The notes beneath the pieces are model-generated. The model was not told the origin of the DNA. It saw nothing but the letters and a program-made list of their open reading frames with translations, and ran no database searches. Shown in pieces: positions 45,354 through 63,632 of a stretch of 64,000 nt of DNA. Source of the stretch: an uncultured Erysipelotrichaceae bacterium (GTDB taxonomy: Bacteria; Bacillota_I; Bacilli_A; RFN20; CAG-826). The translations under genes were made by a program, and so were the position numbers. Numbering within the stretch: the stretch's first letter is position 1; every line of letters begins with the position of its first letter. The DNA lies in the NCBI GenBank assembly GCA_902787955.1, contig CADAIJ010000003.1, positions 77,907-141,906 on the forward strand. Direction: 5' to 3'.

Positions 45354-45677
45354 TTATTTTTTGTTGAAACCCTTTTCAATTAAATGAATATCTAGATTGA
45401 GACAATCTAAAATTCTAATAAGAGTGTCGAGTCTAGGCATGCATTCGCGCTTTTCAATTCTTGCAATCATAGGTTGCTTAATATTGGTTAAGGAGGCGAG
45501 ATCTCTTTGGGTTAAACCGAGAGCTTTTCTTCTTTGCACGATTAAATCAATGAAAGAGATGATTTTATTTGTTCTTTCAAGGAGTTCTTTGTTTTCGTTA
45601 GATTTGTTTGAAAATGTTTTTAAAGCTTCTTTAACAGAAATTGTGCCAATTACGTTCTTTTTGATCTTTTTAGTCAT
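45354..45677 (-). CDS. XRE-family helix-turn-helix regulator
   Basis: 107 residues with ATG at 45677 and GAGG 9 bases upstream (a TTG at 45692 is less likely). The C-terminal half is an HTH_3 domain: LGLTQRDLASLTNIKQPMIARIE. The N-terminal third is Lys-rich. This resembles the antitoxin of a HigBA-type pair, but no toxin gene is next to it. It may be an orphan regulator. Confidence 0.82.
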   Translation of the reverse strand: MTKKIKKNVIGTISVKEALKTFSNKSNENKELLERTNKIISFIDLIVQRRKALGLTQRDLASLTNIKQPMIARIEKRECMPRLDTLIRILDCLNLDIHLIEKGFNKK

Positions 45678-45769
45678 ATTATTATGCCTCAACCTTGATA
45701 ACTTTTTCGTTATCTAGATTTTAGCAAGAAAAAATATTAAATTCAATTAAATAACATATAAGTAATCGC

Positions 45770-47638
45770 TTATTTCCCTTTAATAAAGAGGAAAGTATGT
45801 AACATTATTTTGGTGTCCAATATAACTGACATCTTTTTAACGTATTCACTATCGAACCACGCCTTAGACATAACATCATGCTGTCTTTTCATATAGACTT
45901 GAGAATAACCAGTAATACCTGGCTTAACATCAAAAGCGCTTGGTTTATATTTGTCTCTAGCCTCTATTAAGATATCTTCATGTTCACTAGCACCTGGTCT
46001 AGGACCTACAAAAGACATATTACCAATAAAGACATTAATAAACTGTAATGTTTCGTCTATTGATGTCACTCTTAAAAATCTTCCAAATTTAGTTTCGTAT
46101 TTGTCTCTATCATTATCAGACATTTCGTATGGTGGAATGATTGGAGCGTCCACCTTCATTGATCTAAATTTAAACATCTTAAATATCTTCTTATGTTTGC
46201 CCACTCTTTTAGGAGCGAAGACAGGATGTCCTTTAGTGATTATCATATTAACTATGAAAATCCACCACCAAAGGAGGATAGTAGATATAATAATCATTAT
46301 TAAAGAGAAGATAATATCAAAGAGACGCTTAAAGAATAAGAAGAGTTTCTTAGACTCTATATAATAATTATCATCTTCATCTATGTTCTCTTTATGGGCT
46401 TTATTAAGTGCATAAATAATAAAGATAAGAATAACAATTAAAGTAACTCCTCCCACAACTAGAAGAAGCTTAAATAAATCAGAAGAGAAGAAAGATAGAT
46501 TAAACCCTCTAAATTCACCAGTATTAGGATCAATCCCGGCTTGTGAACACATTGTTTTCCATTTCTCATTCACGCTATAAGGAGTATCTTTAATTAAATT
46601 CTCGTAAGAGTTTCCATTTTGTGAATATCCAGAATAATCCATGAGTATCTCTTTTTTAAGATCATTAATTGTGGCAGACTTATTCTTAAACCAAGTATTA
46701 AAAAGATTAGATACGGTAAAAGAAGTTGAACCATTAGAATCTGCTTTACCATAAGTTAGATAAGCTTCACAGACATATTTAAGGATAGTCGCACTAGCGG
46801 AATTCACACTACCAGTAAGAACACTAAACTCAGTATTATTTAAATCAGCGAAGTAACATGATCCATAAGAGATGTTGGGGATTTCTGCCATATCATAGAT
46901 TAAATAAGAATGTCCTTCTTTTTGTGATATAGATAAGAAAGACATAGAACTAACTGTATAAGGAATATCCGCGTAATAATATGTTTCATTTGTAGAGAGA
47001 TTTAAGACTTGCTCCATCTCGATAAGGATAAAGGCCTTACTTAAATCATCTATATAACCTATAACATTCTTACGAGGTGTCCCCCAGTCATCATTATCAT
47101 AGAAGTTAGGATAAGTGTTATTTAGCCACACTCTTTGGGTTTTATATGTAGCGCCTGGGTTTTTTATTCTTTCCCCATAATAGCCATATCCTTTAATCTC
47201 TTGTTTAGAGTTAGCGGTATATTCATCTAAACATAGATAGTTATATTCTTTATTTAGAAGTGGGTTATCTTCTCCCCCACTTATAAAGATAGATAAATAA
47301 TCATCTATAGATGAATCAAATGAATGTATTTCAAAACCATAGTCTTGATTAGTAAAGATAGTATAAGGGATAACTTCTTTAGTTTTATATAGATAATCAT
47401 TAATAAGAGTTAATTCTACTTCATGAGTAGTTGTGTCTTTATACACTAAGGTTGGGTTAGCACCTTCTTCTTTAAATTTAGTGTTTAAAGATAAATCAAC
47501 ATAAATAGTTTTATCATTAACATACCAAGCATTAACTTCATTATTATTAATTCTAGAATTAGACGATAAAGAAATAGTTCCAAAAGATAAAACATTAAGA
47601 AGTATAGAGATGATAAATATATAATATTTCTTTAACAT
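45770..47638 (-). CDS. exopolysaccharide sugar transferase fused to a large extracellular domain (622 aa)
   Basis: The C-terminal 195 residues (428-622) are a bacterial sugar transferase (polyprenyl-phosphate sugar-phosphate transferase): a re-entrant hydrophobic segment, FKFRSM, the catalytic Asp-Glu in SIDETLQFINVF and MSFVGPRPG. Such enzymes start repeat-unit synthesis on undecaprenyl phosphate. Unusually, the N-terminus has a signal-like helix (5-25), about 350 presumably extracellular residues rich in Tyr, Asn and Ser, and a membrane helix near 380-405. The usual four-helix N-terminal region of WbaP-type proteins is absent. No ribosome-binding site is clear at ATG 47638. Operon partners may be the Wzz/CpsD-like genes upstream. 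Confidence 0.85.
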   Translation of the reverse strand: MLKKYYIFIISILLNVLSFGTISLSSNSRINNNEVNAWYVNDKTIYVDLSLNTKFKEEGANPTLVYKDTTTHEVELTLINDYLYKTKEVIPYTIFTNQDYGFEIHSFDSSIDDYLSIFISGGEDNPLLNKEYNYLCLDEYTANSKQEIKGYGYYGERIKNPGATYKTQRVWLNNTYPNFYDNDDWGTPRKNVIGYIDDLSKAFILIEMEQVLNLSTNETYYYADIPYTVSSMSFLSISQKEGHSYLIYDMAEIPNISYGSCYFADLNNTEFSVLTGSVNSASATILKYVCEAYLTYGKADSNGSTSFTVSNLFNTWFKNKSATINDLKKEILMDYSGYSQNGNSYENLIKDTPYSVNEKWKTMCSQAGIDPNTGEFRGFNLSFFSSDLFKLLLVVGGVTLIVILIFIIYALNKAHKENIDEDDNYYIESKKLFLFFKRLFDIIFSLIMIIISTILLWWWIFIVNMIITKGHPVFAPKRVGKHKKIFKMFKFRSMKVDAPIIPPYEMSDNDRDKYETKFGRFLRVTSIDETLQFINVFIGNMSFVGPRPGASEHEDILIEARDKYKPSAFDVKPGITGYSQVYMKRQHDVMSKAWFDSEYVKKMSVILDTKIMLHTFLFIKGK

Positions 47639-47718
47639 ATAGAGTAATTTTAAAGTTATTGATTAATCTATTCAATAATATCTTAGTTTATGGTTATATC
47701 TTTAGGCCTTAAAAATAT

Positions 47719-47857
47719 CTATCTGTTTAAATTTACCTATTTTTAAACACTTGAGGGGGTTATTTATATGCCTATCTGTTTAAAATTCGGCATTTTTAAA
47801 CACTTAGCCATAATTTAGAGGTGCTATGTGTATAGAAATCATATATTTTAAACACTT
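47719..47857. repeat. three 34-bp direct repeats with 52-53 bp periodicity
   Basis: Units at 47719-47752, 47772-47805 and 47824-47857. The first two share CTATCTGTTTAAA and ATTTTTAAACACTT; the third keeps CTAT and TTTTAAACACTT. Arms TGTTTAAA and TTTAAACA make units 1 and 2 partly palindromic. Starts are 53 and 52 bases apart, about five helical turns. On the plus strand units 2 and 3 also lie in 16-codon frames behind GAGGGGG and AGAGGTG. The remaining part of 47639-47971 has a CCGAAA/TTTCGG hairpin (47895-47917) and no gene. Confidence 0.7.
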
Positions 47858-47971
47858 AACAAATAGTGTGTGTTAATGATCGAGATACGAAAACCCGAAA
47901 TAAGCCCATATTTTCGGCAGCTATAAAATAATTTTTTATTGGAAATTGCGATAAGGAAATAGCTCAAAACA

Positions 47972-48511
47972 CTAATTATTTTGTGATTTGATTAATCTTC
48001 TAAAATTCTGGGAAATATTTGTAACAAGTTTAATATCGTTTCCTTCTTGATAAACAATTTTCATCATTCCGATATTTATCAATGCGGTTCCTGATGAGAA
48101 AATTGATGCTATTTGATAAGGTGTTGGTGTATCAGAAGTAATTGATTCTAAAATGTTTCCATCAAATTTATAGTGTTTAAAAATTGGCTTTTCAATTGTT
48201 TCTTTTCTAACGCTCCAATTATTATCAAAATTATTATCTGGTGGATTTCTTTTTACGATGATTGTTGTATTTATAAGCATCATAAATAAGATAAAACTAT
48301 CTTCGGTAAAGCATATTTGCAAATATATACCAGAGCAAAATGAATTTTCACTATAAGTTCCATCAAGGGAAATATCAAAACCCGTTGAATTATCTTTCCC
48401 ACACGGTTTTAGATATAAATTCAAAATTTTGTAATCTTTAAATTTTAATAAAGTTATTATTTCGTCTCGATATTTAGAAAAAGATTCGTTATCCCAATTA
48501 AAGTTATTCAC
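47972..48511 (-). CDS. hypothetical protein (179 aa)
   Basis: I do not recognise this protein. It is 179 residues, without signal peptide or membrane helix, with mixed alpha/beta character and many Asn, Phe and Ile. It lies 5 bases after the zinc-ribbon gene and is likely co-transcribed with it. It could be an immunity- or effector-type protein of the accessory region, but nothing in the sequence shows this. Confidence 0.55.
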   Translation of the reverse strand: MNNFNWDNESFSKYRDEIITLLKFKDYKILNLYLKPCGKDNSTGFDISLDGTYSENSFCSGIYLQICFTEDSFILFMMLINTTIIVKRNPPDNNFDNNWSVRKETIEKPIFKHYKFDGNILESITSDTPTPYQIASIFSSGTALINIGMMKIVYQEGNDIKLVTNISQNFRRLIKSQNN

Positions 48512-48516
48512 GTAAA

Positions 48517-48891
48517 TTACTCTCTAATCTTTCCCGGAATCTCATTTCTTCTCATAAAGAACTGTTCAGGATCTATATAGAAAATTGGTGTGTTACTACT
48601 AGAATCTTCATATACCGCAAAATATCCTCTTTTACCTTCTCCATCAGGAGTGGTGTAATAAAAATGTTCCATCTTAGAATTGACTTCCATCTCTTTGGTT
48701 AAAGCGATAGAACCATACTTATTTAATTGAACATCCTTCTTTTCATGATCTGTCCCTGGGTTTACAACTAATATCGATGGATAATAACCTTCAAATAAAA
48801 TCTTTCCCTCAATCGGATAACCACAGCTAGGACACGCTACTGCTTGACTACTAATTCGTTTCCCACATTCTGGACACATTACTAACGCCAT
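48517..48891 (-). CDS. zinc-ribbon protein (124 aa)
   Basis: The N-terminus has two CxxC knuckles (MCPECGKRI and ACPSCGYPI), a zinc-ribbon of the DZR type. The remaining 90 residues form a beta-rich domain (DVQLNKYGSIALTK, YYTTPDGEGKRGYFAVY). A GGGGG ribosome-binding site precedes the start. It and the 179-residue gene form a pair. Function unknown; such ribbons often anchor small effector or sensor domains. Confidence 0.65.
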   Translation of the reverse strand: MALVMCPECGKRISSQAVACPSCGYPIEGKILFEGYYPSILVVNPGTDHEKKDVQLNKYGSIALTKEMEVNSKMEHFYYTTPDGEGKRGYFAVYEDSSSNTPIFYIDPEQFFMRRNEIPGKIRE

Positions 48892-49122
48892 ATAGTACCC
48901 CCTTTATTTTGAAATATAAAAATAATAGACAAAATATAATTTAACAAGAAGCATATATCTTTATTTAAAATATATATAAATTTTTTAGAAAATTAAATAA
49001 TGAAGTAACTATATTATCCGCTAATTATATTTCACTGATTATAAAACTTATCTATAAAGCATATGGCTAATAATTTGATAATATATTTGTCTTTGTGTTT
49101 TTTGCAAACAAATCTAAAAATA

Positions 49123-49151
49123 AGCACCCACGAATTCGATTCGTGGGTGCT
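49123..49151 (-). terminator. terminator of the CpsC/CpsD-like operon
   Basis: Perfect 13-bp stem AGCACCCACGAAT/ATTCGTGGGTGCT with 3-base loop, followed on the minus strand by TTATTTTT. The rest of 48892-49122 is AT-rich with no gene seen. Confidence 0.92.
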
Positions 49152-49175
49152 ACACTATTTAAGAATAACTAATAA

Positions 49176-49817
49176 TTATTTAATAATAACCGTTTTAGCG
49201 ATTGGGAGTTTGTTCTCCACTAAATATTGTAAGGCATAATAGATATCGCCTTTTTTAGTTAAGCTAGATTGGCTAACTAAGATGATTGCGTTTACTAGTC
49301 CTTTAAGTAAAGATACTTCTTTATGTTTCTTTAAGGAAGGAACTAGTACGACAAAGTGATCATATTTAGCTTCGTTATCTTTAATAATCTTATTAATTAA
49401 GCCTTTTTTATATACTTCAGAAGGATAGACTTCTTTATTTAAGCAAACTGCATCAATACCTTCATCAATAAAGATAACTTCATAGTTTTCTTCTTTTTCA
49501 CTAGAACCTACTTCGACATCACTTTCTTCTTTTTTAGTAAGAAGCTTTGCTAATGATGGGTTATATAGATTAGCGTCAATTACTAAAGTCTTTTCTTTAT
49601 TTAAAGCATAGGAATGAGCGAAGGCTTTTCCAAATGCTGCGGCTAATTCATCATTATGAATAGATGTAACTGCGATTACTTTGGTATCAAAAGAAACAGT
49701 AATCTCGTTTTGGAGAGCGGTTAATCTACGATGGATTGTTTCATTCTCTTTAACTTTTAAAATGTTATCAATCATCATTTGTTTTAAGACATTATTATCT
49801 TTTAAAGCGTTAAACAT
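49176..49817 (-). CDS. CpsD/CapB-like protein lacking Walker A
   Basis: A 213-residue relative of BY-kinases that regulate capsule chain length. Walker A' is kept as TLVIDANLYNPSL (77-89), but where the P-loop GEGKS/T should lie (about 52-60) the sequence reads SIHNDELAA, so ATP binding is unlikely in the usual way. No tyrosine-rich tail is present; the end is KTVIIK. It follows the CpsC/Wzz gene. It is probably a pseudo-kinase regulator (inference). Confidence 0.65.
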   Translation of the reverse strand: MFNALKDNNVLKQMMIDNILKVKENETIHRRLTALQNEITVSFDTKVIAVTSIHNDELAAAFGKAFAHSYALNKEKTLVIDANLYNPSLAKLLTKKEESDVEVGSSEKEENYEVIFIDEGIDAVCLNKEVYPSEVYKKGLINKIIKDNEAKYDHFVVLVPSLKKHKEVSLLKGLVNAIILVSQSSLTKKGDIYYALQYLVENKLPIAKTVIIK

Positions 49818-49843
49818 AATATTATTATCCTCCTCTCTCCAGT

Positions 49844-50539
49844 TTATTTCTTATCTGTTACGGTTAAGGTGAAGGCATCGCCTCCTAAGGCAATGATATC
49901 ATCTTTATCGTAAACTTGATCAGACACTATTTCATAAACAAATGGAACACCTAAAGCTAAGACTGCTCCTAAAGCTAAGCCAATAAGTAAGTATTTATTT
50001 TCACTACTATTTTTAGTTGGAGCACTTGCTTCACTATAAGACATGTTAGCGTATTCTGCTTTAGCAGGGTTTCGATCCGCTTTAAGATATGCAACTGCGT
50101 TCTTGGTAAGTTCATTCATAACTTGTTGAGTGATAGATTTATCACTAGAAGTGAATGAATAAGAAACATTAATAGAGTTAGTAGCTAAGGTTGCAAAAGA
50201 TAAGCCAGATTTAATCTCTGCTACTGTGATTTCATTTCCGTTAGCGTGCTTAACATTATTCTCTTTTAAGTTAACCGCGGTTGTATATATAGCGCCTGGT
50301 TTAGTTTCATCATTAGAAGTATCACGAATATAGTTTTGGATAACTTGATATTGCGCCGCACTTATAACAGCATTTCTATTAAGTGTGACACTAGATTGAT
50401 ATGTTTTAGTCATCATAAAGTTAGTGACTAAAAATGTAGCAAGAGCGATTGGAATAAAGATTAATAAGATAATATGAAATCTTCTTGCTAATGTGAGATA
50501 GATGGTTTTAAGACCAATTTGTTTTTCGTATCTGTCCAT
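49844..50539 (-). CDS. Wzz/CpsC-type polysaccharide co-polymerase
   Basis: A 231-residue membrane protein of the chain-length determinant family. Helix 1 is at about 22-44, an extracellular domain follows, and helix 2 is at about 184-205 with VPFVYEIVSDQVYDKDDI after it, a typical Wzz end. The C-terminal cytoplasmic tail is short. It is paired with the CpsD-like protein. The 303-base gap upstream holds the small two-hairpin RNA element. Confidence 0.82.
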   Translation of the reverse strand: MDRYEKQIGLKTIYLTLARRFHIILLIFIPIALATFLVTNFMMTKTYQSSVTLNRNAVISAAQYQVIQNYIRDTSNDETKPGAIYTTAVNLKENNVKHANGNEITVAEIKSGLSFATLATNSINVSYSFTSSDKSITQQVMNELTKNAVAYLKADRNPAKAEYANMSYSEASAPTKNSSENKYLLIGLALGAVLALGVPFVYEIVSDQVYDKDDIIALGGDAFTLTVTDKK

Positions 50540-50721
50540 AGTAGTATTTTTCCTTATAAATAAGCAATGTAATTTTATTATAAATAAATTAATGTGTCTA
50601 TTGTTTGTTTAAAGATGCCAAATGAGGGTGCTTGTATTTCGTTAATCGCAAGCAAATTGAAAATGCTCTTTTATCGAATTTGAATTATCAAAGTTTTAAA
50701 TGGCTATTGTAAGGAAAATGT

Positions 50722-50810
50722 TTGAAATTATAATCTATAAAACTCTATAATATAAACGATCATAAACCGATAAGGTTTGAAAAGAGGCCTTGATAGGCGC
50801 TCTTTTTTTG
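50722..50810 (+). ncRNA. copy A of a two-hairpin small RNA / bidirectional terminator element
   Basis: Promoter TTGAAA (50722-50727), 18-base spacer, TATAAT (50746-50751). The transcript (about 50760-50810) has hairpin AAACC-GATAA-GGTTT and a terminator stem AAAAGAG-GCCT/AGGC-GCTCTTTT plus T-run. Copy B at 62160-62208 shares a 27-base block exactly; in the stem, GCCT/AGGC becomes GTCT/AGAC, a compensatory change. Confidence 0.65.
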
Positions 50811-50842
50811 TCCTTTGGACAAACATGTTCCAAGATAACAAT

Positions 50843-51904
50843 TTAATTAAATTTATATATTGGCGTAAATTTTGTATCTAACGTGCTGTATGGCAGTTTG
50901 TTTTCGTTGTGTAATCTTCCTAAAACAATGCAAGGATGAATTCCAATTTTGTTCGCAAAACATTTAATAGAGCTTGAGGAAAAGTTGTTATTAATTATAA
51001 ATTTGTTCCATTCTTCCCTTGGAATCAAAATATCCTCTGCTTTTGCATCAGCTTCTTTATCATCAACACCATCAATGGACAAAAGGGCTTCTCTTTTGTG
51101 TTCCATTAGAACATGTGCAATCTCATGGCAAACTGTGAACCAGAATAAATCTGCTTTTCCTCCTCTATTAGAAACAGATAACATTACGTTATCTTTGCTT
51201 AGCCATTTAGTGGCCCCATAAATATTTGATTTAGATAAATATGGAAGCAAAACAAACGAAACACCACAATCTTTAAACATTTGTTGAAGTTCTGGATAGA
51301 AAATATCTTTTTTCATTGTTGTCATTTTGCGTATTGTTGGTAATTTTCTAATCAATTCTTCTCTATTATAAGTGCTACTTTGTCTTTTTCTAGCCTCATT
51401 TAGAGCAATCGCAATCCATAGATTTTGATAAAAATAACTATTTAATCCTTTCTTGGTATGTTGTTCCTTAAAACAAACCAAAAGATCTTTATTGTCTAAA
51501 AGAGTTAATTGATTAACACCGACGAATTTCCTTACTTTAAGGACAATTGTATTGTTGTCATCGCTAGGATCTATAATTTGAAACGCTGATAAATAATCTT
51601 TAACATTTTTAACGAGTTTCCAATCTTCGGACAATGATTTCAACATTTCTTGTTCTTTTTTTGATGCGTTGTATTGATTTTGGAGATTAGTCCAAAAATT
51701 TACACTGTTTCCAAAATATTCAGATAACTTAAAAGCAATCTCAAAACTCACATCACAGTTCCCAGTAATAATACCGGATATCATTCTTTCCGATATTCCT
51801 GTTCTAATTGAAAACTCTTTAGCAGTCATCTCTAATGCATCAAGCGCATCTTTTAAATAGACGCCTGGATGGAATTTTGTTATTTCCCTTCTTCTCTCAA
51901 TCAT
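50843..51904 (-). CDS. higA: HigA-type antitoxin fused to an ImmA/IrrE metallopeptidase-like domain
   Basis: A 353-residue two-domain protein. The N-terminal HTH (about 20-75: FSIRTGISERMISGIITG) is typical of HigA, and the C-terminal part carries the zinc motif HEIAH (260-264) plus downstream acidic residues of the COG2856/ImmA family. It starts 8 bases inside higB, in toxin-first order. The peptidase-like domain may degrade a partner or sense stress (inference). The downstream two-hairpin element can act as its terminator. Confidence 0.85.
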   Translation of the reverse strand: MIERRREITKFHPGVYLKDALDALEMTAKEFSIRTGISERMISGIITGNCDVSFEIAFKLSEYFGNSVNFWTNLQNQYNASKKEQEMLKSLSEDWKLVKNVKDYLSAFQIIDPSDDNNTIVLKVRKFVGVNQLTLLDNKDLLVCFKEQHTKKGLNSYFYQNLWIAIALNEARKRQSSTYNREELIRKLPTIRKMTTMKKDIFYPELQQMFKDCGVSFVLLPYLSKSNIYGATKWLSKDNVMLSVSNRGGKADLFWFTVCHEIAHVLMEHKREALLSIDGVDDKEADAKAEDILIPREEWNKFIINNNFSSSSIKCFANKIGIHPCIVLGRLHNENKLPYSTLDTKFTPIYKFN

Positions 51905-52259
51905 GGTAATCTCCTATCTTCCCAATTCTGAATTTCTTTGTTTCTTTTAGCACATCAATTTCTTGATTATTAACATCAGGAATTCTAACCTTATCGTTTT
52001 CATCTAAACAAAGAGCGGGAACTCTCCATTTAGATTTTTTGTTATCTGGAGACAAGGAGTAAACTCCCCTCATATCTCCGTGTAATAAATGCATTTTATA
52101 TTGTGGCAACGATTTAATATCGTTTGCGCATTCAGCAGCCTCAATAGCACACAACATTTTCTCAAGCCCTACCGAAAACACTTGCCCATACTTTCTTTTA
52201 ATGTATTTGGCATCATAATATTCTTTTTCAATACTAGGCGAATCAAATGTCATTTTCAT
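51897..52259 (-). CDS. higB: HigB-like toxin
   Basis: A 120-residue RelE-superfamily toxin, longer than RelE. The middle LPQYKMHLLHGDMRGVYSLS matches the HigB region that contacts mRNA. Toxin-first order with higA supports the call. A -10 box ends 9 bases before ATG without a ribosome-binding site, so the message is probably leaderless. Its operator lies between the -35 and -10 boxes. Confidence 0.8.
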   Translation of the reverse strand: MKMTFDSPSIEKEYYDAKYIKRKYGQVFSVGLEKMLCAIEAAECANDIKSLPQYKMHLLHGDMRGVYSLSPDNKKSKWRVPALCLDENDKVRIPDVNNQEIDVLKETKKFRIGKIGDYHD

Positions 52260-52268
52260 AGTGTATTC

Positions 52269-52297
52269 ATATTACATTTTTTGTAATTTAAAATCAA
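52269..52297 (-). promoter_or_regulatory. higBA promoter with palindromic operator
   Basis: Minus strand TTGATT (52292-52297), 17-base spacer, TAATAT (52269-52274). The palindrome ATTACA-(5 T/A)-TGTAAT (52271-52287) fills the spacer and reaches into the -10 box, as expected for HigA repression. Confidence 0.65.
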
Positions 52298-52321
52298 TGG
52301 TTAAATTATAAACTTTAAAAC

Positions 52322-52349
52322 ATAGCGCCGCCCTTTTTGGCAACGCTAT
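52322..52349. terminator. hairpin between higBA and the rfbB remnant
   Basis: ATAGCG/CGCTAT outer and GCC/GGC inner stem. Weak T-runs follow on both strands, so it could end either transcript. Confidence 0.5.
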
Positions 52350-52382
52350 TAGTCTTTTCTTTATTTATTAGTGTGTTAATTA

Positions 52383-52750
52383 TCTATCCGTACATATTTT
52401 GGTAATACTTTTGATAATCACCACTAGTACATTCATCTAACCAATCTTTATGGTCTTGATACCATTTGATAGTTAGTTTAATTCCATCTTTAAACATTGT
52501 AGTTGGTGCCCAGCCTAATTCTTTCATAGCTTTATCAGGAGCGATTGCATATCTTAAATCATGGCCTTTCCGGTCTTTAACATATGTAATTAAACTTTCT
52601 GGTTTATTAAGTTCTTTAAGGATAATCTTAACAATCTCGATATTAGCTTTTTCATTATGACCACCAAGATTATATATCCCCCCTACTCTACTTTTTTAGA
52701 ACTGCTAATATATCTCTACAATGATCTTCAACATGTCTTTAACGTACTAT
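52383..52750 (-). pseudogene. rfbB: decayed dTDP-glucose 4,6-dehydratase, C-terminal remnant
   Basis: From 52676 down to the stop at 52383 the minus strand reads IYNLGGHNEKANIEIVKII, then YAIAPDKAMKELGWAPTT and a normal RfbB end. Just upstream, 52691-52732 in another frame reads VEDHCRDILAVLKK, which normally precedes that segment, so about 2 bases are lost in between. Farther upstream HVEDH is preceded by VR and a stop, and the dehydrogenase part is absent. RfbB makes dTDP-4-keto-6-deoxyglucose for surface sugars; this copy is dead. Confidence 0.85.
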
Positions 52751-53029
52751 AATAATCCCAAATTTTTATTTGACGTAAATAATTCCGACTGTAAAAATCC
52801 TACTTAGAGGTCAACTAGCCACTAATGATGCCGTCCATCTAAGCAAAAAAACTCATTGTTTGAATCATCAAATGTGTCGTTATAGTTGTTCGACGGTTTA
52901 ATCAACTACTTGTGTCAAAATGAATCGCAATTACCAAAACAAGTAAAAGGTTACATTAATTAATAATTATTAAGTCTGAATAATGAGTTTAAAAGTATAC
53001 TGAGATATGCGAATAAAACAGGTAATGAT

Positions 53030-56000
53030 TTAAAGCAATCCTAAATTTGCACGCATCCTGTCATTAATACCATCAAAATTATAACTGTCGGCGATCATGG
53101 TAAGAGCAACAGAAGTTACACTATTTGTGTATTTATAAAAGTCGGCATATTTTAAATATTCATCTCTAAGAACAAATTCTGGCGTTCCATCTTGGACCGT
53201 TCTAATACCTCTTCGATTAGTAACATCATTAGCAAAAGATCGAGAGATATCGTTTCTATCATTGTTTGTAATCAGAGATAATCTTTCCAATATGTCAGCA
53301 ACTTCTTTTGTAGGCCAAAAAATTTGTCCAGGTATTTTTGGACAGGTGGAACAAACATTTATAATTGCACCAACAAGGAAATTAGATCCTTTTTCATTAT
53401 TTGCAAAATCACATTTCTTAATTAGACGCTCGGCCCAATCTTTAAATAAAGCAGGTTGCTGAACAATATATTCCTTTGGAATAAAAGAACTATCAGTAAT
53501 CGGAACAATAGTGTCCATATAAATTTTGAAGCCTATTGAATTCGTATCCAATTCTTTGCCTTTTGAGTGAATAGACAATAGTAAATCAGCAAACTCTTCT
53601 GGTTTCATCCAAAAATACTTTTTAATTCCTAGCGGATAGTCTTCAAGATTGCCCTTAATGATAGGTAATAATTTAAACTCACAAACAGCAAGCTCGTCAC
53701 TATAAAATTTCTCATCCATTTTTTTAACAATTACTTGGATTTCATAAATCATTTCGCGCAATTTAGAAGTATATTTTTTGTCGGAAATAATTTCTGCGAT
53801 TCGATTCAAAAACTTAATTCCAGTATCGTAGTCGATATCAACATTGAAAGCTAGCTCTGGTGCAAGATTGGTTGGATTAAAACATAAATATTTATCAAAT
53901 ACATCAGTGATATTAACACCGCTATTTTTAAAGAAATAATTGTTTTCCCAATAAATATGTTCGTTCTCCTTTCCGTCAATAATACCAAATACCTCTTTCT
54001 TAAATGGCAAACATTTGTATATGACATAATTATTGACATGCTTGCTGAAAACAGATTCTAACGATTTCTGGTCTAAAGAATAAAGATAGAATCTTAATCC
54101 TTTTTCATGTTTGGCCTTAATTAGGTTTTCTATATCTCTATATATATCGTTTGATAATTCATAAATATACTGCCACATATAATGTGATGTCGCTGTTTTA
54201 TCTTTAATAATTCTTTTAATAACTTTTTGGCCATATTTATCAAAAAGTTGTTGAATTGTTTCTTTTCTAACAGAATTTCTTATTAAATCTTCATCTTTTT
54301 GATGGTTTGGATCATCGAAATCCGGTGGGTTGTTTAATGGGAAGAAATCATTTCGCAAAATATAATTAACTTTGTCGTATAACTCATCGGGTTCTGTCAG
54401 CTTAATGACATTTTCAAGAATTGGAATATAATCTTTAAGAATTCTCCAATTGCTAAACCTAATAATATTCTCTTTCGTGGATATAGCTTTAATTCTTATG
54501 TCTTCCTTTTCTTCCGAACTTAAATTGGGAATCTCGGCACATATTTTTTCAAACTCTCTTTTCATTTGTTTGAATGGATAGTGATGGATATTTTGAAACA
54601 AATTGTTAATGTATTCTTTTTTATTGCTCCCATTCATCAATAACCAATTGAAAGCCATTTCTTGAGCATCAAAAACATCATCATAAGTACATTCATAGGT
54701 TTGTTTTTTAAAATTGCGGTAATAATCATCACCTGATGAAAACACCGAATCACCAAAACCGCTTGATAATGATTCAATTACTGGCTCAATTTTGATATTG
54801 TCTTTGCCGGCAATGTATTTATAGAAAAAATCATTTTTATCTTTAAGAGGTATGGCGATTATGCCACACACACTTGCAATTGGAGACATTATTTCTTGGA
54901 TTTCTTTTTGAACCATTTCTCTCGAATTTATCTTAAAGAAGAAGTCGACCAGGCAAGCTAAAGCACTAGCAGCGAGATTTTTATCTAGATAACATATTCT
55001 TAATGCACTTAAAATATATTGTGCATTTTCTGTATCAACAAATCCTTTATTTATTATATTTGAGTAATTCCTTAAAAATTCTTCATTGTTCGCCAAAGTA
55101 TCTGTTAAATAATTAAGAAATGATTTTGGTGAAAGTTCTGCAAATATTCTAAAATATGGCCCAATTTTAGTCGCCTCACCAACATTGCCATTTGTTTTTT
55201 GCAAAATGTTTATGACCACATAATCAAAATATTTTTGACTATTATCATCTTTTTCAGCTATTAAAATTAGACCTCTTACAATGTTGCAAACAAGCCTTTC
55301 TACAGTCCCATTGTTTGTTGTGTTAAAAATTAATTCAAATAATACATCTTCAATCTTTTTGATAATTTTTAAATATGTATTAACTTGTACAAAATCAAAA
55401 CATTCAAATCTGCTTCCAAGAACATAGACGCCGTTGTAATTAAACAAAGGTGGCTCATCAATTTCAGACAAATAGTTCAATGTGCATAGATATTTATCTA
55501 AATCAACAGTAATTAAATCTTCCAGACATTTGACATTTAGCTGATTATTCATATTAATGTCGCCCAGAAGCATCAAGGGAATCAAATCATATTTTTCTTT
55601 TATCTTTGCCCATGATGGCGCTTTATCTGAAGGGTTTTTAGAAAGCATTCTTTTAAGCGCTACGGGGTTGTAATTAGAAATATGTGCATATCTTTCAGCA
55701 TCATCATTAGAAAATCCTGACTCTTTTAATAAGTTAAGAAAAGAATCATGCTTAACAAACCCTAATTGATTGTCAGTGTCTAAAGGGCCACCAAAAATCA
55801 AAATCATATTCTTCGTGATTAAATTAAATCTTATTTCGTCGCATTTAAAATTTAAAATCAGAATTTTGTTTTCGGAAACCGAATTCATAGATAAAAAAGA
55901 ACCATAATTATCTAACACTACGCATCTATCAGATATTGCCGAATCGCCATTTTGAACCAAAGACGCAATAACGAAATAGTAAGCATGAAGTTTGCCAAAA

Positions 56001-56677
56001 TATTTTGATGAATAAGATAATATTCCTGAATCGTTAGTTTTTATATTGTTAATCAATTCACCACTTTTGTTTTCGTTACCGCATATATAAATAGATGGTA
56101 ACAATTCTTTGGAAGTTGATTGTTTAATGATATTCCATTCTTCACTCAAAGATCTGATGCCATATTCTTTATTGTTCAAATCATACTGAGTTAGCAGCCA
56201 AACAGATATTTCTAAATGATCACATAGCCAGTCAGCTAAATCATTAGCATCATATATTTTTATCTTCTTAAAAATCTTTTCCTTATTAAATTCTTTGGCT
56301 AATTCAGATTTTAGAGTTCCATCAAGGCAAGATGATGAAACCAAAACAAAAGATGTCGTTTTCTTTTTGGTTATTTTTTTATCATCTCTTCTTTTGCAAT
56401 AGTCATTTCTTATTTTTCTTTCGCTATTGGCATTAGTGCCAGCTTCCCAAACACTTCTACCAGATGGAACGAGCTTTATTCCTTTTGGAGCATCTTTCAC
56501 AATTCCGTCAGGACCGGTTGTAAAAATAGCACTTCCATGAGGAAAACATGAATAGGTGTTTTTGTTGCATGATGCTTTAATAAGTTTATCAAGCAACCTT
56601 GGTAGAACCTCCATAGTTTTCCTATCATCGGTTTTAAATATATTTGATAACTGTTTGCCATCTTTAATTATCTTCAT
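53030..56677 (-). CDS. large probable defence protein with N-terminal nuclease-like segment (1215 aa)
   Basis: The N-terminal 190 residues resemble the segment that precedes ATPase domains in some STAND/Avs-like anti-phage proteins: GPDGIVK (D57), SVWEAGTNANSE (E78), NDYCKR, FVLVSSSCLDG, then IYDANDLADWLCDH and SVWLL. It could be a PD-(D/E)xK-type fold, but the catalytic Lys after E78-A-G is not seen. I find no Walker A motif afterwards. From about 400 on the protein is helical, repeat-like and rich in Asn, Phe and Lys. No partner gene is coupled. A defence role is inferred from domain similarity and from the neighbouring TA and Pycsar genes. The 5' region has a weak AAGG site. Confidence 0.5.
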   Translation of the reverse strand: MKIIKDGKQLSNIFKTDDRKTMEVLPRLLDKLIKASCNKNTYSCFPHGSAIFTTGPDGIVKDAPKGIKLVPSGRSVWEAGTNANSERKIRNDYCKRRDDKKITKKKTTSFVLVSSSCLDGTLKSELAKEFNKEKIFKKIKIYDANDLADWLCDHLEISVWLLTQYDLNNKEYGIRSLSEEWNIIKQSTSKELLPSIYICGNENKSGELINNIKTNDSGILSYSSKYFGKLHAYYFVIASLVQNGDSAISDRCVVLDNYGSFLSMNSVSENKILILNFKCDEIRFNLITKNMILIFGGPLDTDNQLGFVKHDSFLNLLKESGFSNDDAERYAHISNYNPVALKRMLSKNPSDKAPSWAKIKEKYDLIPLMLLGDINMNNQLNVKCLEDLITVDLDKYLCTLNYLSEIDEPPLFNYNGVYVLGSRFECFDFVQVNTYLKIIKKIEDVLFELIFNTTNNGTVERLVCNIVRGLILIAEKDDNSQKYFDYVVINILQKTNGNVGEATKIGPYFRIFAELSPKSFLNYLTDTLANNEEFLRNYSNIINKGFVDTENAQYILSALRICYLDKNLAASALACLVDFFFKINSREMVQKEIQEIMSPIASVCGIIAIPLKDKNDFFYKYIAGKDNIKIEPVIESLSSGFGDSVFSSGDDYYRNFKKQTYECTYDDVFDAQEMAFNWLLMNGSNKKEYINNLFQNIHHYPFKQMKREFEKICAEIPNLSSEEKEDIRIKAISTKENIIRFSNWRILKDYIPILENVIKLTEPDELYDKVNYILRNDFFPLNNPPDFDDPNHQKDEDLIRNSVRKETIQQLFDKYGQKVIKRIIKDKTATSHYMWQYIYELSNDIYRDIENLIKAKHEKGLRFYLYSLDQKSLESVFSKHVNNYVIYKCLPFKKEVFGIIDGKENEHIYWENNYFFKNSGVNITDVFDKYLCFNPTNLAPELAFNVDIDYDTGIKFLNRIAEIISDKKYTSKLREMIYEIQVIVKKMDEKFYSDELAVCEFKLLPIIKGNLEDYPLGIKKYFWMKPEEFADLLLSIHSKGKELDTNSIGFKIYMDTIVPITDSSFIPKEYIVQQPALFKDWAERLIKKCDFANNEKGSNFLVGAIINVCSTCPKIPGQIFWPTKEVADILERLSLITNNDRNDISRSFANDVTNRRGIRTVQDGTPEFVLRDEYLKYADFYKYTNSVTSVALTMIADSYNFDGINDRMRANLGLL

Positions 56678-56872
56678 GATAGTTGCCTTTGCGATAAAAG
56701 ATTAAATGTTATTTAACGTTCTTAAATATTTTTGCTATAAAAGTCCAAATAACTCAGCAATTTTTCTATTTAATATAATACTTTATATGCTTTCTAATGT
56801 CTATTTCATAGACAGTTGTTTGCAAAAATATAACTTGAATTATCTGTTTTTTGGTTGATTTATATCGCATAA

Positions 56873-56998
56873 GGAACCGGTACCACTACGTACAATAAAG
56901 ACAAGGTTATCTTAGATAAGAAACTTCCGTACGAATATAACATCTGTCTTTATATCTTAGAAGAATTATGTGATAAGGGAGTTATCGATGTTTTTTAG
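56873..56998 (+). pseudogene. open fragment of unknown origin in the mobile-element relic
   Basis: A 41-codon fragment between stops: TTTYNKDKVILDKKLPYEYN, then YILEELCDKGVIDVF. It has no start codon of its own and directly precedes the recombinase remnant, so it may be the small gene or upstream end of the same element. The rest of 56678-56872 is AT-rich with no gene seen. Confidence 0.45.
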
Positions 56999-57022
56999 AC
57001 GACGGAAGCTAGCCCATAACAT

Positions 57023-57175
57023 AAACTAAGAGTCTGCGCCTATGTAAGAGTCTCCACTGATAGTGAAAAACAATTAAAATCTTTTGATGTTCAAATTGGA
57101 AAACAGATACTCATCCACAAAAATAAGGACTTTAAACTGTTTTTAAAATCAAAAATAAGTATTCAACAAATGTAA
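57023..57175 (+). pseudogene. N-terminal remnant of a serine site-specific recombinase
   Basis: The plus strand reads KLRVCAYVRVSTDSEKQLKS, the hallmark start of large serine recombinases including the catalytic Ser in RVSTDSE, then FDVQIGKQI and a stop at 57175. The remaining domains are missing and no start codon lies in frame. It marks an old integrated element. Confidence 0.85.
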
Positions 57176-57206
57176 TTAGTTACTAGAAATAATATTGAAA
57201 GAAATA

Positions 57207-58025
57207 TTAGAGATAGACTACGACTTGATTGCCATTTTCTTTCCTACATTCACCGTATATTGATCCTTCGTGAATGACGCCTTCGCTAACTGCGGTAATT
57301 TGCATATATGTAGGAAGGTTATTTGTTGCAAAAGATAATGTCCCAAAAGATTTAAATGTTTCACCATTTTCAAGAGTGTTAGGGTAAGTAAAATAATCAT
57401 GCATATCGAATAGACCGGTCGAAGTAATAACGGAAACAGAATTCGAAGAATCAACATTATATTTTGTTGCTTCGACTGTAAATCCTAAAAGACTTACTTC
57501 ACTATCAGTAAAATATGTCTCCTGATTTACGTAATACGACATTGATGAAGTATATGTTTGTAAAGGCACAGTGGAATAATTGTTTGAAGGGTAACCGAGA
57601 CGGAAGTTATTTCCATTTCTTGTGGAATGGATTATTTCCAAATCTGCTGGCGAGCTAGAGAAATGCAATATACATAAATTATTTACTATCTTAGTGTTGC
57701 CATGTTCGGTGAAAAGGAATAAAAATCCGTTTGCATAGGCGACATTTGTTTTTAGTTCGGTTTGAATGCAATAATTTACAGAATACGTATTTTTCCATGA
57801 AGTTGAATAAGGAATGTGATTCATTTTTAAAACTTCGTAAAAAACAGTGAATGTTGCCATTACTTCATCTCTGCTACTAATCAAATTATAAGAGAAATTA
57901 CTTTTTGCCAACACCGAATCAACCTGTTGGATCGATAGCGAGTACACATTAGAGTTATGATTAACATCAAGTGTGAAAGCGGATAAAGGTATTACTGACA
58001 ATAGTAAAAATAGTTTTTTAAGCAT
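57207..58025 (-). CDS. secreted protein of unknown function (272 aa)
   Basis: Start at 58025 chosen because GAGGGGG lies 7 bases upstream; the frame opens at 58049. The signal peptide is MLKKLFLLLSVIPLSAFTLD with no lipobox Cys. The mature part is beta-rich with many Ser, Thr and Tyr, and two Cys near the middle. It follows the ABC transporter gene by 37 bases, so it is probably the transporter's substrate, partner or co-regulated exported protein (inference). I do not recognise a domain. Confidence 0.6.
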   Translation of the reverse strand: MLKKLFLLLSVIPLSAFTLDVNHNSNVYSLSIQQVDSVLAKSNFSYNLISSRDEVMATFTVFYEVLKMNHIPYSTSWKNTYSVNYCIQTELKTNVAYANGFLFLFTEHGNTKIVNNLCILHFSSSPADLEIIHSTRNGNNFRLGYPSNNYSTVPLQTYTSSMSYYVNQETYFTDSEVSLLGFTVEATKYNVDSSNSVSVITSTGLFDMHDYFTYPNTLENGETFKSFGTLSFATNNLPTYMQITAVSEGVIHEGSIYGECRKENGNQVVVYL

Positions 58026-58062
58026 AATAATCCCCCTCTTTATTGTCAACCTTAGTTTAACA

Positions 58063-60285
58063 CTATTTTATAAGTGAGACAAAGCTTTTTTTACTTAGAA
58101 CTTTAAATGCTATAAATGTCGATAAAATCGAAATTATTAACGCAATAACGACAAGAAATATAGATGTAAAAAAGTTAATTCCAAACACATTAGAAATAAC
58201 ACCGAATTCTACTTTGAAAACATCATTAAGCAATATTTGTAAAAAGATAATTGTTGTTAAAGATAAAATCGATGATAAAAGAGCAACAAAAAGCGGTTCT
58301 AATAAGAAAGAAGCAATAGTTGTTTTTTCTGAATATCCACACGATCTAATGATGCCGAAAACTTTCATAGAATCTTTTGTTATCGATAATGAAAAAATAT
58401 AAATAAATATAAAAGATAAAATGGTGGTAATAATTGCTATGACTGTTGAAGCGATTGAAAAGGGAATTAAAAACGATGAAATTGAAGTAACTTTATGAAT
58501 AGATAAACTTCGTATTTGATAAATATTATTTCCATCAATTAATTTGTTATTCAAATGATATATTTTTTTAGCAATGCTAGCATCGTTAGGAACAAAGCTA
58601 CTTAAAGTATTAATAGCAGGACTATTTCCCTCTCCATAAATCGAATCAAGAAGATAGGTAAGATTTGAGGTATATATAAAGCAATGTGGAGATTCGTTAT
58701 GATAATATGACCATTCGACATAAAGATTATAATTCTTCCTATCGTTATAATCTAAAAGCACATTCTTTAAGACTTGATATTTCTCTACTGAAATTTTTGT
58801 GTCAATAATGCCTTTGATAATAAAATTATTGGAACCAATTTTAAAAGTCTTATCGATAAGGCTATTTATAGTTATATCCGAAGGATTAATTATAACATCA
58901 CCATTTTTATACCCAAAACACTTAAACAATTCGTAGTGTATTGAAGTTAACAATATCTCGTTATCGTTAGTAGGTAAGGAACCAGACAATAATGAACAAT
59001 GATTATTATCAATAATAGTTGAGTCGTATTGAATTGCACCCTTACATAAGTAGTTATAATATCTACCATAAGTCATGTATTCATCATCAACAAAATAAGC
59101 ATTAAAACCGAAAACTTGTCGTTTAAAAGTTAGGTAATAATCTAAAGGTATACAATCCTTTAGGTCTTCTATATCACTTTTAGAAATATTAGATACAACT
59201 GTTCGTTTATTTTCGTTAAGGAAATATTTGTCAAAAGATGCATATGAATTATTATCAGCTAATGTCTCGCTTATCATATTTTCTTCTTCGTTATATGTGG
59301 CAAATGTAAGCGATGTTCCAATAAATGAAAGACATAAGAACATTAAGATAATAGAAAAAGCAAATCTCCATTTATTGTTTTTTAAAATAGAAATAACAAT
59401 ATTAAATAAAGGTTTGAATGAGGTTTTCTTTCTTTCAAACGAAAGTTCTTTCTCCTCATATTCTTCTTTGTTTTTATTGTTGATATAGTTATTTGAAATA
59501 GAAAAATTTCTATCTGCGCTTGAGTCATTTAAATAATCAATAAGTTCATTCACTTCGCTATTAGATAGTTTTGTTCCGCTTCTAATCGTGTAAGAATTAT
59601 TTCCAACTTGTATAATCTTACTCTCACTTTTAATTTGATCCCCCACCACTTTTCCATTTTCAAGGCTAATTAATCGATCAGCGTAAGAAGATAGAAGAGA
59701 ATAATCATGCGAAGAAACGATAATAAGTTTTTCTTTTGATAGCTCTTTTAAAATTTCATAAATAGTTATTGAATTATCTTTATCTAACGCGCTTGTTGGT
59801 TCATCACAAATTAATATATCAGGGTTTTGAAGCAAGGTTCTAGCAATAGCCACTCTTTGTTTTTGCCCACCAGATAAATTCTTAGCAAGGGCGGTTTTAT
59901 ATTCAAGGAGTTTAACTTTATTTAAAATATCATTGATAAGGTTCTTATTTTCTTTATCAAATAAACATAAAGAAAGATTATCCTCAACACTTATATTTTC
60001 TAATAAGTTGTAACTTTGAGAGATATAACCAACTTTTTCTCTTCTAAATAAATCTTGTTCTTCTTTAGATAAAGAAAAAATATTGTTTTCAAAAAATAAT
60101 ACTTCACCAGATGTAGGATTATCTAATAGAGAAATAATATTTAATAAAGTTGTCTTCCCTGATCCAGATTCTCCTATTATTCCAATAAATCCAGTTTGAT
60201 TAAAATATAAATCAACTGAATCAAGAGCGGATACAGTCGATTCTTTATTAACGTATGTTTTTGAAATAGAAGAGAGCCTTAACAT
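58063..60285 (-). CDS. MacB-like ABC exporter, fused ATPase and FtsX permease (740 aa)
   Basis: Walker A GESGSGKTT (38-46), signature LSGGQKQR (137-144) and Walker B ILICDEPTSALD (157-168) are complete. A membrane helix near 305-325 is followed by an external domain and three C-terminal helices. The signature uses Q where the 3-8 kb pair uses E. A -10 box TATAAT (60293-60298) ends 7 bases before ATG, with GAGG crowded into that gap, so the message is nearly leaderless. The secreted-protein gene follows in the same direction. The substrate is unknown. Confidence 0.84.
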   Translation of the reverse strand: MLRLSSISKTYVNKESTVSALDSVDLYFNQTGFIGIIGESGSGKTTLLNIISLLDNPTSGEVLFFENNIFSLSKEEQDLFRREKVGYISQSYNLLENISVEDNLSLCLFDKENKNLINDILNKVKLLEYKTALAKNLSGGQKQRVAIARTLLQNPDILICDEPTSALDKDNSITIYEILKELSKEKLIIVSSHDYSLLSSYADRLISLENGKVVGDQIKSESKIIQVGNNSYTIRSGTKLSNSEVNELIDYLNDSSADRNFSISNNYINNKNKEEYEEKELSFERKKTSFKPLFNIVISILKNNKWRFAFSIILMFLCLSFIGTSLTFATYNEEENMISETLADNNSYASFDKYFLNENKRTVVSNISKSDIEDLKDCIPLDYYLTFKRQVFGFNAYFVDDEYMTYGRYYNYLCKGAIQYDSTIIDNNHCSLLSGSLPTNDNEILLTSIHYELFKCFGYKNGDVIINPSDITINSLIDKTFKIGSNNFIIKGIIDTKISVEKYQVLKNVLLDYNDRKNYNLYVEWSYYHNESPHCFIYTSNLTYLLDSIYGEGNSPAINTLSSFVPNDASIAKKIYHLNNKLIDGNNIYQIRSLSIHKVTSISSFLIPFSIASTVIAIITTILSFIFIYIFSLSITKDSMKVFGIIRSCGYSEKTTIASFLLEPLFVALLSSILSLTTIIFLQILLNDVFKVEFGVISNVFGINFFTSIFLVVIALIISILSTFIAFKVLSKKSFVSLIK

Positions 60286-60369
60286 GCCTCTAATTATACG
60301 ATTTAATCAAACTTTTATTAATAATTTTTGACAATTATCTCATTTATAGAACCAAATTCAAACATACAT

Positions 60370-61605
60370 CTATTCAAATATTCCTAGCTTATAATCAAAC
60401 CCAAATTCTCTACGAACCATTATTGCTGGCCCATTAAATGAATGAATCTCTATTTCGTTTTCAAAAATAAGATGAAGTTGATTTAGATAATTTCTTGATT
60501 CAGGAAAAGTTCTCCAAGAAGTTAGTTTTCGTCCGTTAAAAAGTATCTCTTTTTTATGCCCGTCAGCGAATAAAATAATCATACAATCGTCATATTCTAT
60601 AACCACCCCAAAGACTTCAACTCTAGCCTCTAAAACGGGTTTATTTGGTAATGACACTTCGTAGTGTCTAATAGAATCTTGTCTATTCCTATCATTTGCT
60701 AAAACCGCTTTTTTATTGAAAGAATAAATATGTCCATTAGCGATACAATAAACTAAATAGTTTTGAGAGAAGAAAAAGCCATTTTCAACGCTAAACCATT
60801 CGTTTAATGGTATTCTTCTTTCAATTGATACTTTTCTTTTTCGACGTTCTTCTTCTGTTCGATCATATTCATCAGCGAATTCTACTTTTCTTTTAATCAA
60901 ATATGCTTTATCTACATAAGAGCCAGAAAGAAAGTCATTATAATCTCTTGTTACATAGGAACAATGATAAGGTAAAATCTTACGTAACTTTTGTCCTTCG
61001 CCATAATCCCAAAGCGGATACTGATAAACTCCATCAGATAAACTAGATAATAACAAATATCCATATGAGGCACTTGAAATCTGCACAAACGGTTTATTAG
61101 ACACTTTGATAATTTCACTCCAAAATCGATTGGAGAGATTAGATGGGAATCTATTCTTAAAAGGAATTCGAGTCAGTCCGCTTTCAGAACATAAGAAAAT
61201 ATTCTTTTGATAGATAAGCATATCAGCGGGAAGAGTTTCTAAATCAATAGTTTTATTATAAAGACATTGATATTTAGTATTTATTTCTTCAATTGATTCA
61301 AACTTAAAATGTAAACTAGCTAAAATCTTCTTATAAAAAGCCTCGCCAATATCTTTATCAGAAGAAAGCAATGTTAAAAATTTCCCATCTATTCTATATA
61401 AAGCAGAGCTATCCAAAAAAGACATATGTAATCCAACGGCATAATCCTTATTTTCTTTTATTATCGAATTAATAAATCTATCCCAGTGGAGACACTTTAT
61501 CTTTTTATCTAAAGTTAGTAAATAAAGCTTTCCTGAATAAATAAAGGAATCAAAAAAATTTCCTCCAATTTTAATTAACCAACTTGAATATAATTTATCA
61601 CTCAT
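60370..61605 (-). CDS. hypothetical protein, second gene of an unknown cassette (411 aa)
   Basis: 411 residues, soluble, beta-rich with repeating strand-turn units (SGKLYLLTLDKK, LYRIDGKFLTLLSS, YGYLLLSSLSDGVY, CIANGHIYSFNKKA) that suggest a beta-propeller or similar. A charged helix EEERRKRKVSIERR interrupts the middle. Overlaps the first gene by 4 bases (ATGA), so the two proteins are made together. No catalytic motif or family is recognised. An effector/sensor pair is possible but not shown. Confidence 0.55.
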   Translation of the reverse strand: MSDKLYSSWLIKIGGNFFDSFIYSGKLYLLTLDKKIKCLHWDRFINSIIKENKDYAVGLHMSFLDSSALYRIDGKFLTLLSSDKDIGEAFYKKILASLHFKFESIEEINTKYQCLYNKTIDLETLPADMLIYQKNIFLCSESGLTRIPFKNRFPSNLSNRFWSEIIKVSNKPFVQISSASYGYLLLSSLSDGVYQYPLWDYGEGQKLRKILPYHCSYVTRDYNDFLSGSYVDKAYLIKRKVEFADEYDRTEEERRKRKVSIERRIPLNEWFSVENGFFFSQNYLVYCIANGHIYSFNKKAVLANDRNRQDSIRHYEVSLPNKPVLEARVEVFGVVIEYDDCMIILFADGHKKEILFNGRKLTSWRTFPESRNYLNQLHLIFENEIEIHSFNGPAIMVRREFGFDYKLGIFE

Positions 61606-62039
61606 AGAGGTTTTCCTCTTTTTAAGCGTTTTAAATCACGAGGGCATAGTTTTGAGCCAGGGCCAACATCATAAAAGTCAGAAGATGGCCTTTCTCTATT
61701 TTGATCCATATGATTCACTGGATAACCATGCCACTCAATGTTTTCTGAATCGCTTTTATTAATAAAATAGCAAAGGAAAAGTTTTATTTCTGATGACCCA
61801 GCCTTGCCTTTACCAACAGGTTGAGCTTCATAATTATCTATTAATAAGTTGAAGGTTGAAGAAGCACCGCTCAACAAATCAAATGATGTTGTAAATAAAC
61901 CAAACTCTTCATCTCGATGAATTGTCCAAACTGATTTATTGTCTGTTGGGCATGCGTAATGGTGATATGGAATGAAACAATAAGAATATTTTTTGCCATT
62001 GGCACTAGTATAACTACAAGTATTTGATGGATTTATCAT
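61602..62039 (-). CDS. hypothetical protein, first gene of an unknown cassette (145 aa)
   Basis: 145 residues without signal peptide. A distinctive C-terminal block reads WHGYPVNHMDQNRERP followed by LCPRDLKRLKRGKPL; short basic motifs of this form end several small uncharacterised bacterial proteins, but I cannot name a family. Four of the five Cys are scattered and do not make a clear metal site. No good ribosome-binding site precedes ATG at 62039. The 344-base gap upstream holds copy B of the two-hairpin element. Confidence 0.5.
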   Translation of the reverse strand: MINPSNTCSYTSANGKKYSYCFIPYHHYACPTDNKSVWTIHRDEEFGLFTTSFDLLSGASSTFNLLIDNYEAQPVGKGKAGSSEIKLFLCYFINKSDSENIEWHGYPVNHMDQNRERPSSDFYDVGPGSKLCPRDLKRLKRGKPL

Positions 62040-62144
62040 ATGATTGGTTAAAAATGTTTTGCTCCTCTAAATAGAAATGTTTAACATCAAAAATATTGAA
62101 TCACATTAGAAATCTAACACATGTAATACTTTAATACAAACTAT

Positions 62145-62208
62145 TATAGTATAAGTGAGCATAAACCGATAAGGTTTGAAAAGAGGTCTCGATAGACGCT
62201 CTTTTTTG
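62145..62208 (+). ncRNA. copy B of the two-hairpin small RNA / bidirectional terminator element
   Basis: Same -10 position (TATAGT, 62145-62150) as copy A and the identical 27-base block at 62160-62186, then stem AAAAGAG-GTCT/AGAC-GCTCTTTT and T-run. The -35 box is weak here. On the minus strand the same hairpin could terminate the Pycsar operon. Confidence 0.6.
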
Positions 62209-62292
62209 TTTTAACGTCAATAGTTTCTTTCTTTAGGATTTAGAATTAAAAACTGTATTTTTCCATCACAACTAGCATTTTTTCACCTTATA

Positions 62293-62334
62293 GAATAAAA
62301 ATTTTTATTCAACAAGTACTATCAAGAACTTGTT
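62293..62334. terminator. tandem hairpins downstream of the Pycsar operon
   Basis: AACAAGT/ACTTGTT (62311-62317 with 62328-62334), next to an 18-bp perfect palindrome GAATAAAAATTTTTATTC (62293-62310). T-runs follow on both strands. Confidence 0.55.
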
Positions 62335-62384
62335 TTAATTGGTTCACCATTTGCTTCGATTACTTATTTATTCATAAAATCGCA

Positions 62385-62882: not shown

Positions 62883-62887
62883 ATTGC

Positions 62888-63631: not shown

Positions 63632-63632
63632 A

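Follow-up and report, generated by a model that had tools for sequence, protein, structure and literature searches.

The locus and its repeat units

Three genes of capsule-type polysaccharide synthesis follow one another on the minus strand of the analysed DNA (64,000 nucleotides, here called the window). They encode a cpsC/Wzz-like chain-length protein, a cpsD-like tyrosine autokinase and the sugar transferase CpsT, in which the Bac_transf domain occupies residues 437-617 and is preceded by an N-terminal part of 420 aa. Between cpsD and cpsT lies a variable slot of about 1.4 kb that holds a zinc-ribbon gene, a gene for a 179-aa protein and then an array of three 34-bp units (Table 1). No relatives were found for the 179-aa protein, the structure model of which has a pLDDT of 38 and was set aside.

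Table 1. Positions of the array, its neighbours and the two-hairpin element (positions in the window unless a locus is named)
Feature	Position	Strand	Remark
XRE/HipB-like regulator	45354-45692	-	solitary; directly downstream of cpsT
cpsT	45770..47638	-	bacterial sugar transferase; next gene downstream of the array
Variable slot	47691..49121	.	between cpsD and cpsT; ends of the conserved flanks relative to L017, from blastn breakpoints and sequence
Unit w1	47719..47752	-	B-type; AAGTGTTTAAAAATAGGTAAATTTAAACAGATAG on the minus strand
Unit w2	47772..47805	-	B-type; AAGTGTTTAAAAATGCCGAATTTTAAACAGATAG on the minus strand
Unit w3	47824..47857	-	A-type; AAGTGTTTAAAATATATGATTTCTATACACATAG; 33/34 identical to unit A of L017
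179-aa protein	47972..48511	-	slot cargo; no known family
124-aa zinc-ribbon protein	48517..48891	-	slot cargo
cpsD-like gene	49176..49817	-	tyrosine autokinase; upstream border of the slot
cpsC/Wzz-like gene	49844..50539	-	chain-length protein
Two-hairpin element	50758-50812	+	window copy
Two-hairpin element	62157-62211	+	window copy
Two-hairpin element, L016	9690-9636	-	
Two-hairpin element, L275	about 5873-5819		
Two-hairpin element, L276	about 6678-6732		
Two-hairpin element, L277	about 6454-6400		

Each unit consists of the inverted half-sites AAGTGTTTAAA / TTTAAACACATA, the centres of which are about 21 bp, or two helical turns, apart. On the minus strand, the coding strand of the sugar-transferase gene, the units are ordered w3, w2, w1, with start-to-start distances of 53 bp (w1-w2) and 52 bp (w2-w3). 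Units w1 and w2 are identical at 29 of 34 positions, whereas w3 matches w2 at 25 and w1 at 23. The three units listed in a preliminary description of this DNA are thus confirmed, and they go beyond chance. The exact dyad TGTTTAAA-N10-TTTAAACA, formed by the arms of w1 and w2, occurs twice in the window against zero expected from 100 dinucleotide shuffles. Moreover, w1/w2 is the top 34-mer pair of the whole window at separations of 35-80 bp, and simulated 64-kb sequences (n=40) reach at most 27 of 34. The 1.5-Mb genome has this one array and no strong unit outside it, and a genome-wide regulon was rejected on that basis.

Two known types of repeat were considered and set aside for the window. 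CRISPR arrays have near-identical repeats and unique spacers of 25-40 nt, whereas the units are only 23-29/34 identical and their spacers measure 18-19 bp. As for the RNA repeats of type III toxin-antitoxin systems, the gene next to the array is cpsT and none of the neighbours has a ToxN-type match.

Occurrence of the array in other genomes and phages

A sequence-only profile of the unit (R1) was scanned against 220 family and 279 order genomes, and a profile of the unit pair (R3) against 376 class and 392 phylum genomes; most of the genomes compared appear to be metagenome assemblies. R1 and R3 give circular E-values on the sequences they were trained on, and these values were kept out of the evidence. 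Matches of about 30 bits to R1 were obtained at three loci only: the window, G172:C9 and G022:C3 (L015/L016). R3 yielded no further convincing locus in the class or phylum genomes. Lone weak matches in G272, G248 and G483 were set down to chance. G172:C9, which is the same stretch as L017, carries the array in the matching slot of the polysaccharide locus of a second genome. The copy in G022:C3 was first detected by plain blastn (E 2.1e-6).

A fourth locus, the phage contig L071 (IMG/VR 3300046332_000295), came from a pattern scan of viral contigs with 109 matches, mostly at chance level. We regard it, with some reserve, as a true member of the set, less certain than the other three, because its two units lie 51 bp apart, each with a score near the very top for the 7 kb of the contig, because its B unit has GTGTTTAAATTTGGC..TTTTTAAACA in common with the phage unit of G022:C3, and because TTTCTATA of its A unit recurs in w3 and in unit A of L017. 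Apart from L071, the viral contigs gave results near chance level with the exact palindrome (109 stretches), the tandem-arm pattern (32) and the A-type pattern (13). Collections of phage and plasmid records contained no informative match to the array. Relatives of the integrase were found among the viral contigs on L071's own contig only, and no Fic relative there had an array upstream. Nothing was found in the literature on this element under GTGTTTAAA or related descriptions.

Four loci are therefore known in total, with no convincing copy beyond these in the genus, family, order, class and phylum genomes. The genome-wide search that the preliminary description had suggested gave nothing further in the genome itself; the absence of both other copies and conservation in relatives, which it had named as counting against its proposal, was not what was found.

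A variable slot between conserved genes

The genes that flank the slot are nearly the same in the window and in L017 (95% DNA identity on the cpsC-cpsD side, 92% on the cpsT side), whereas the content differs: in L017 the slot holds the array and, downstream of it, a SoFic-like Fic gene (PADLOC SoFic 1.6e-36). The two genomes belong to two GTDB genera, and their RNase P RNA genes are only 79% identical. Set against the 92-95% of the cps genes, this points either to recent horizontal transfer of the polysaccharide genes or to one mixed metagenome bin.

In G053 and G041 only 33 bp separate the homologues of cpsD and of the N-terminal part of cpsT; this interval contains a short terminator-like hairpin but no unit. 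Judging from this comparison, the array is not a long-standing control element of the transferase gene and came with the variable slot. The preliminary description had proposed a regulator of the transferase gene binding upstream of it. The upstream position is correct, yet the proposal is weakened by the variability of the slot, the Fic gene in the relative, the convergent context in the phage and the transferase homologues that have no array.

The phage copies

The contig G022:C3 encodes RecE-like, RecT-like and DnaD-like proteins, a repressor and an integrase; its ends share 55 exact bases and hence form a circle, so that by its sequence it is a circular temperate phage. Its array lies between the late-operon terminator and a convergent small-RNA/terminator element, towards the integrase, and is thus flanked by convergent transcription units. 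A stretch resembling a tRNA 3' end, flanked by TGGACTAAAA repeats and about 220 bp from the array, is likely the attP core.

In L071 the pair of units is followed by a perfect sigma-70 promoter, then by ToxI-like RNA repeats and a ToxN/AbiQ gene (Pfam ToxN 8.6e-46, PADLOC AbiQ 3.8e-46). This type III toxin-antitoxin system (355-1073; ToxI-like repeats, terminator, ToxN/AbiQ) looks complete and lies beside a phage integrase. Its ToxI-like repeats match intergenic stretches of plasmids and phages of Lactococcus, the home of AbiQ. The array resembles ToxI/antiQ repeats in that units of some 34-36 nt follow one another in tandem next to a toxin gene. However, the ToxI-like repeats of L071 (about 355-490) are separate from the array and differ from it in sequence, and the other loci have no ToxN gene; the array was accordingly rejected as a set of such repeats here as well. 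No regulator gene is common to the G022 phage and the other loci.

Conservation of the phase

The spacing of the units is kept at all loci: 52 and 53 bp in the window, 52 and 52 bp in L017, 51 bp in the G022 phage and 51 bp in L071. More specifically, units A and B of L017 are 52 bp apart and a third, half-decayed unit follows at +52 from B; its right arm TTTAAACACTT is intact and exactly in phase, though it now forms part of the first codons of the Fic gene. The G022 phage likewise has a second, decayed unit at +51, which ranks at 1.5e-4 among all positions. Since the scoring matrix was built on the five units of the window and L017 only, the ranks in the phage and in L071 are independent of it. 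The spacers between the units match at only 4-10 of 18 bases, as against 33 of 34 for w3 and unit A of L017. In the window, L017 and L071 the units are oriented in the direction of the downstream gene.

The retention of arms and spacing while the sequence between them changes favours a protein that binds the DNA on one face. Such retention is predicted by same-face binding and by neither a peptide nor an RNA hairpin, and argues for the former. The suggestion of phased sites on one DNA face, already made in the preliminary description, is thereby supported, the phase of 51-53 bp recurring at three other loci with unrelated spacers. Two of the properties looked for in an operator of a dimeric protein, inverted half-sites about two turns apart and whole-turn phasing kept between loci, are found here.

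Alternative explanations

The plus-strand frames noted before units 2 and 3 of the window, each with a ribosome-binding site and an ATG, exist as described and had suggested a family of translated tiny peptides. In the frame of MPICLKFGIFKHL, however, unit 1 lacks a start and is preceded by an in-frame stop; the phage unit also lacks a start, and its centre, shorter by 1 bp, shifts the frame across the unit. The ribosome sites before units 2 and 3 have no counterpart in L017, and what is kept instead are the arms of the dyad. With starts, ribosome sites and frame not conserved, the peptide family is largely refuted and we consider it extremely improbable. Hairpins in a transcript are hardly more credible, and we hold an RNA-level element to be very unlikely. 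The units do fold as hairpins of 8-9 bp, the B-type with -3.3 to -7.7 kcal/mol, but the A-type units fold no better than shuffles (z -0.3), the stems are weak and rich in A-U, and no Rfam covariance model matches; moreover, a phase that stays at 52 bp while the spacer sequence varies freely is a property of DNA.

Two readings at the DNA level have more in their favour. The units might be core sites of a recombinase, with the 13-8-13 geometry of loxP, through which cargo enters and leaves the slot. Like loxP/dif-type sites they are 34-bp inverted repeats with an asymmetric centre. The array borders on cargo that varies from one relative to another, the spacers have turned over beside nearly identical flanking genes, and integrase genes are near in the G022 phage and L071. 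Tyrosine recombinases require matching overlaps, whereas the centres are unequal (AGGTAA, GCCGAA, GGTAGA, TTGGCG): those of w1, w2, unit B of L017 and the phage unit all differ and only w3 equals unit A of L017, which disfavours recombination sites. The phage centre also differs in length by 1 bp, tandem phased triplets are atypical, the likely attP core of the phage lies some 220 bp from the array, and neither the ORFs that surround the window array nor G172:C9 include an integrase, the integrases being confined to the phages. On balance we think recombination sites rather unlikely. The array could also be a site for the handling of phage DNA (partition, packaging, replication or an accessory of integration) that past phage insertions left in the chromosomes. 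This would suit its place in the circular phage, between the end of the late operon and the integrase and between convergent transcripts, and the L071 array lies in the same region. The two chromosomal loci, however, have neither other phage sequence nor a protein in common with the phage, and in L017 the array is kept in phase beside a non-phage gene, so that we judge a DNA-handling site unlikely as well.

A putative operator array

We give about even chances to the reading of the array as a cooperative operator for a putative dimeric protein, carried along with phage-defence or cargo modules. Given half-site centres two turns apart, one dimer is expected per 34-bp unit, on its two inverted half-sites; as the units follow at five turns, two or three dimers would sit on one DNA face and could bind cooperatively. 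The array would be part of a mobile cargo module (Fic, type III toxin-antitoxin, genes of no known function) that occurs in polysaccharide/defence loci, in a variable slot, and in temperate phages, where the late operon meets the integrase. There the array would most probably control how transcription enters the adjacent cargo; in the window it stands upstream of cpsT, with no gene intervening. This context is supported by L017, where the array precedes the Fic gene, and by L071, where it precedes the sigma-70 promoter and ToxIN. L071 has a clear promoter downstream of the array; none adjoins it in the window or L017. Against the operator stand the failure to identify a binding protein for the array and the small number of loci. 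The phage copy of G022 is the weak point, as a promoter operator between convergent units makes little sense unless the cargo was lost; this copy may be what remains of such a module. The XRE/HipB-like regulator directly downstream of cpsT is a candidate binder; the L017 contig ends inside cpsT, before the equivalent position.

Among known systems, the operators of the lambda CI type are tandem inverted repeats for dimeric repressors, helically phased and bound cooperatively. The array likewise has several phased inverted-repeat sites in tandem, suited to cooperative binding. Its units, however, are longer and five turns apart, no cognate repressor was found, and it occupies a cargo slot and not a phage immunity region. 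Another comparison is offered by the SPBRE of the Bacillus prophage SPbeta, a repeated intergenic element in promoter regions that is bound by the master repressor MrpR (PMC10516654). Both are repeated intergenic elements of temperate phages. The SPBRE is a 15-bp motif at separate sites scattered over one prophage (PMC10516654), whereas the array consists of 34-bp units in phased tandem, occurs once per genome and is also found in chromosomal defence/polysaccharide slots.

It is conceivable, though we think it quite a long shot, that phages and defence slots share one phased operator and that a regulator from an incoming or resident phage acts on the host array, switching the neighbouring defence or surface-polysaccharide genes. 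If so, the trigger of defence, or its silencing, would be wired through the phage's own operator. Proteins are the usual means of following defence genes; what recurs here, beside differing cargoes in polysaccharide loci and in phages, is a non-coding array with a locked phase, while its whole surroundings are exchanged. Should it prove to be bound by a protein, the array would offer a handle on how defence modules are controlled after they have moved and landed, and a motif that is easy to search for.

Other features of the polysaccharide locus

The polysaccharide locus (47691-64000 of the window, and L202, which is again G172:C9) is a mosaic of capsule-type and defence genes. The cps genes of L202 (16628-20000) and of the window (45825-50612) are 92-95% identical. 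L202 has a Qat system between rfbA and rfbB, in addition to SoFic, and PD-Lambda-2-like HigBA and Pycsar-like cyclase/PycTM genes lie in or beside the window. Positions 52374-52734 of the window are 87% identical to the end of rfbB of L202, and a matching ORF of at least 60 aa is absent; the stretch looks like a remnant of dTDP-sugar genes that were displaced by defence genes.

A further element, of about 52 nt, consists of two hairpins, AAACC-GATAA-GGTTT and a terminator hairpin with compensatory changes, with promoter-like sequence upstream. No Rfam family matches it at gathering score. The 220 family genomes contain six strong copies, each convergent with the 3' end of the neighbouring gene. 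In the G022 phage it directly adjoins the 34-bp array. Possible identities of this undescribed element are a small RNA and a bidirectional, mobile terminator. Several of its neighbours are of defence type (PD-Lambda-2-like, Abi-like, a helicase), and it is found near Pycsar-like genes.
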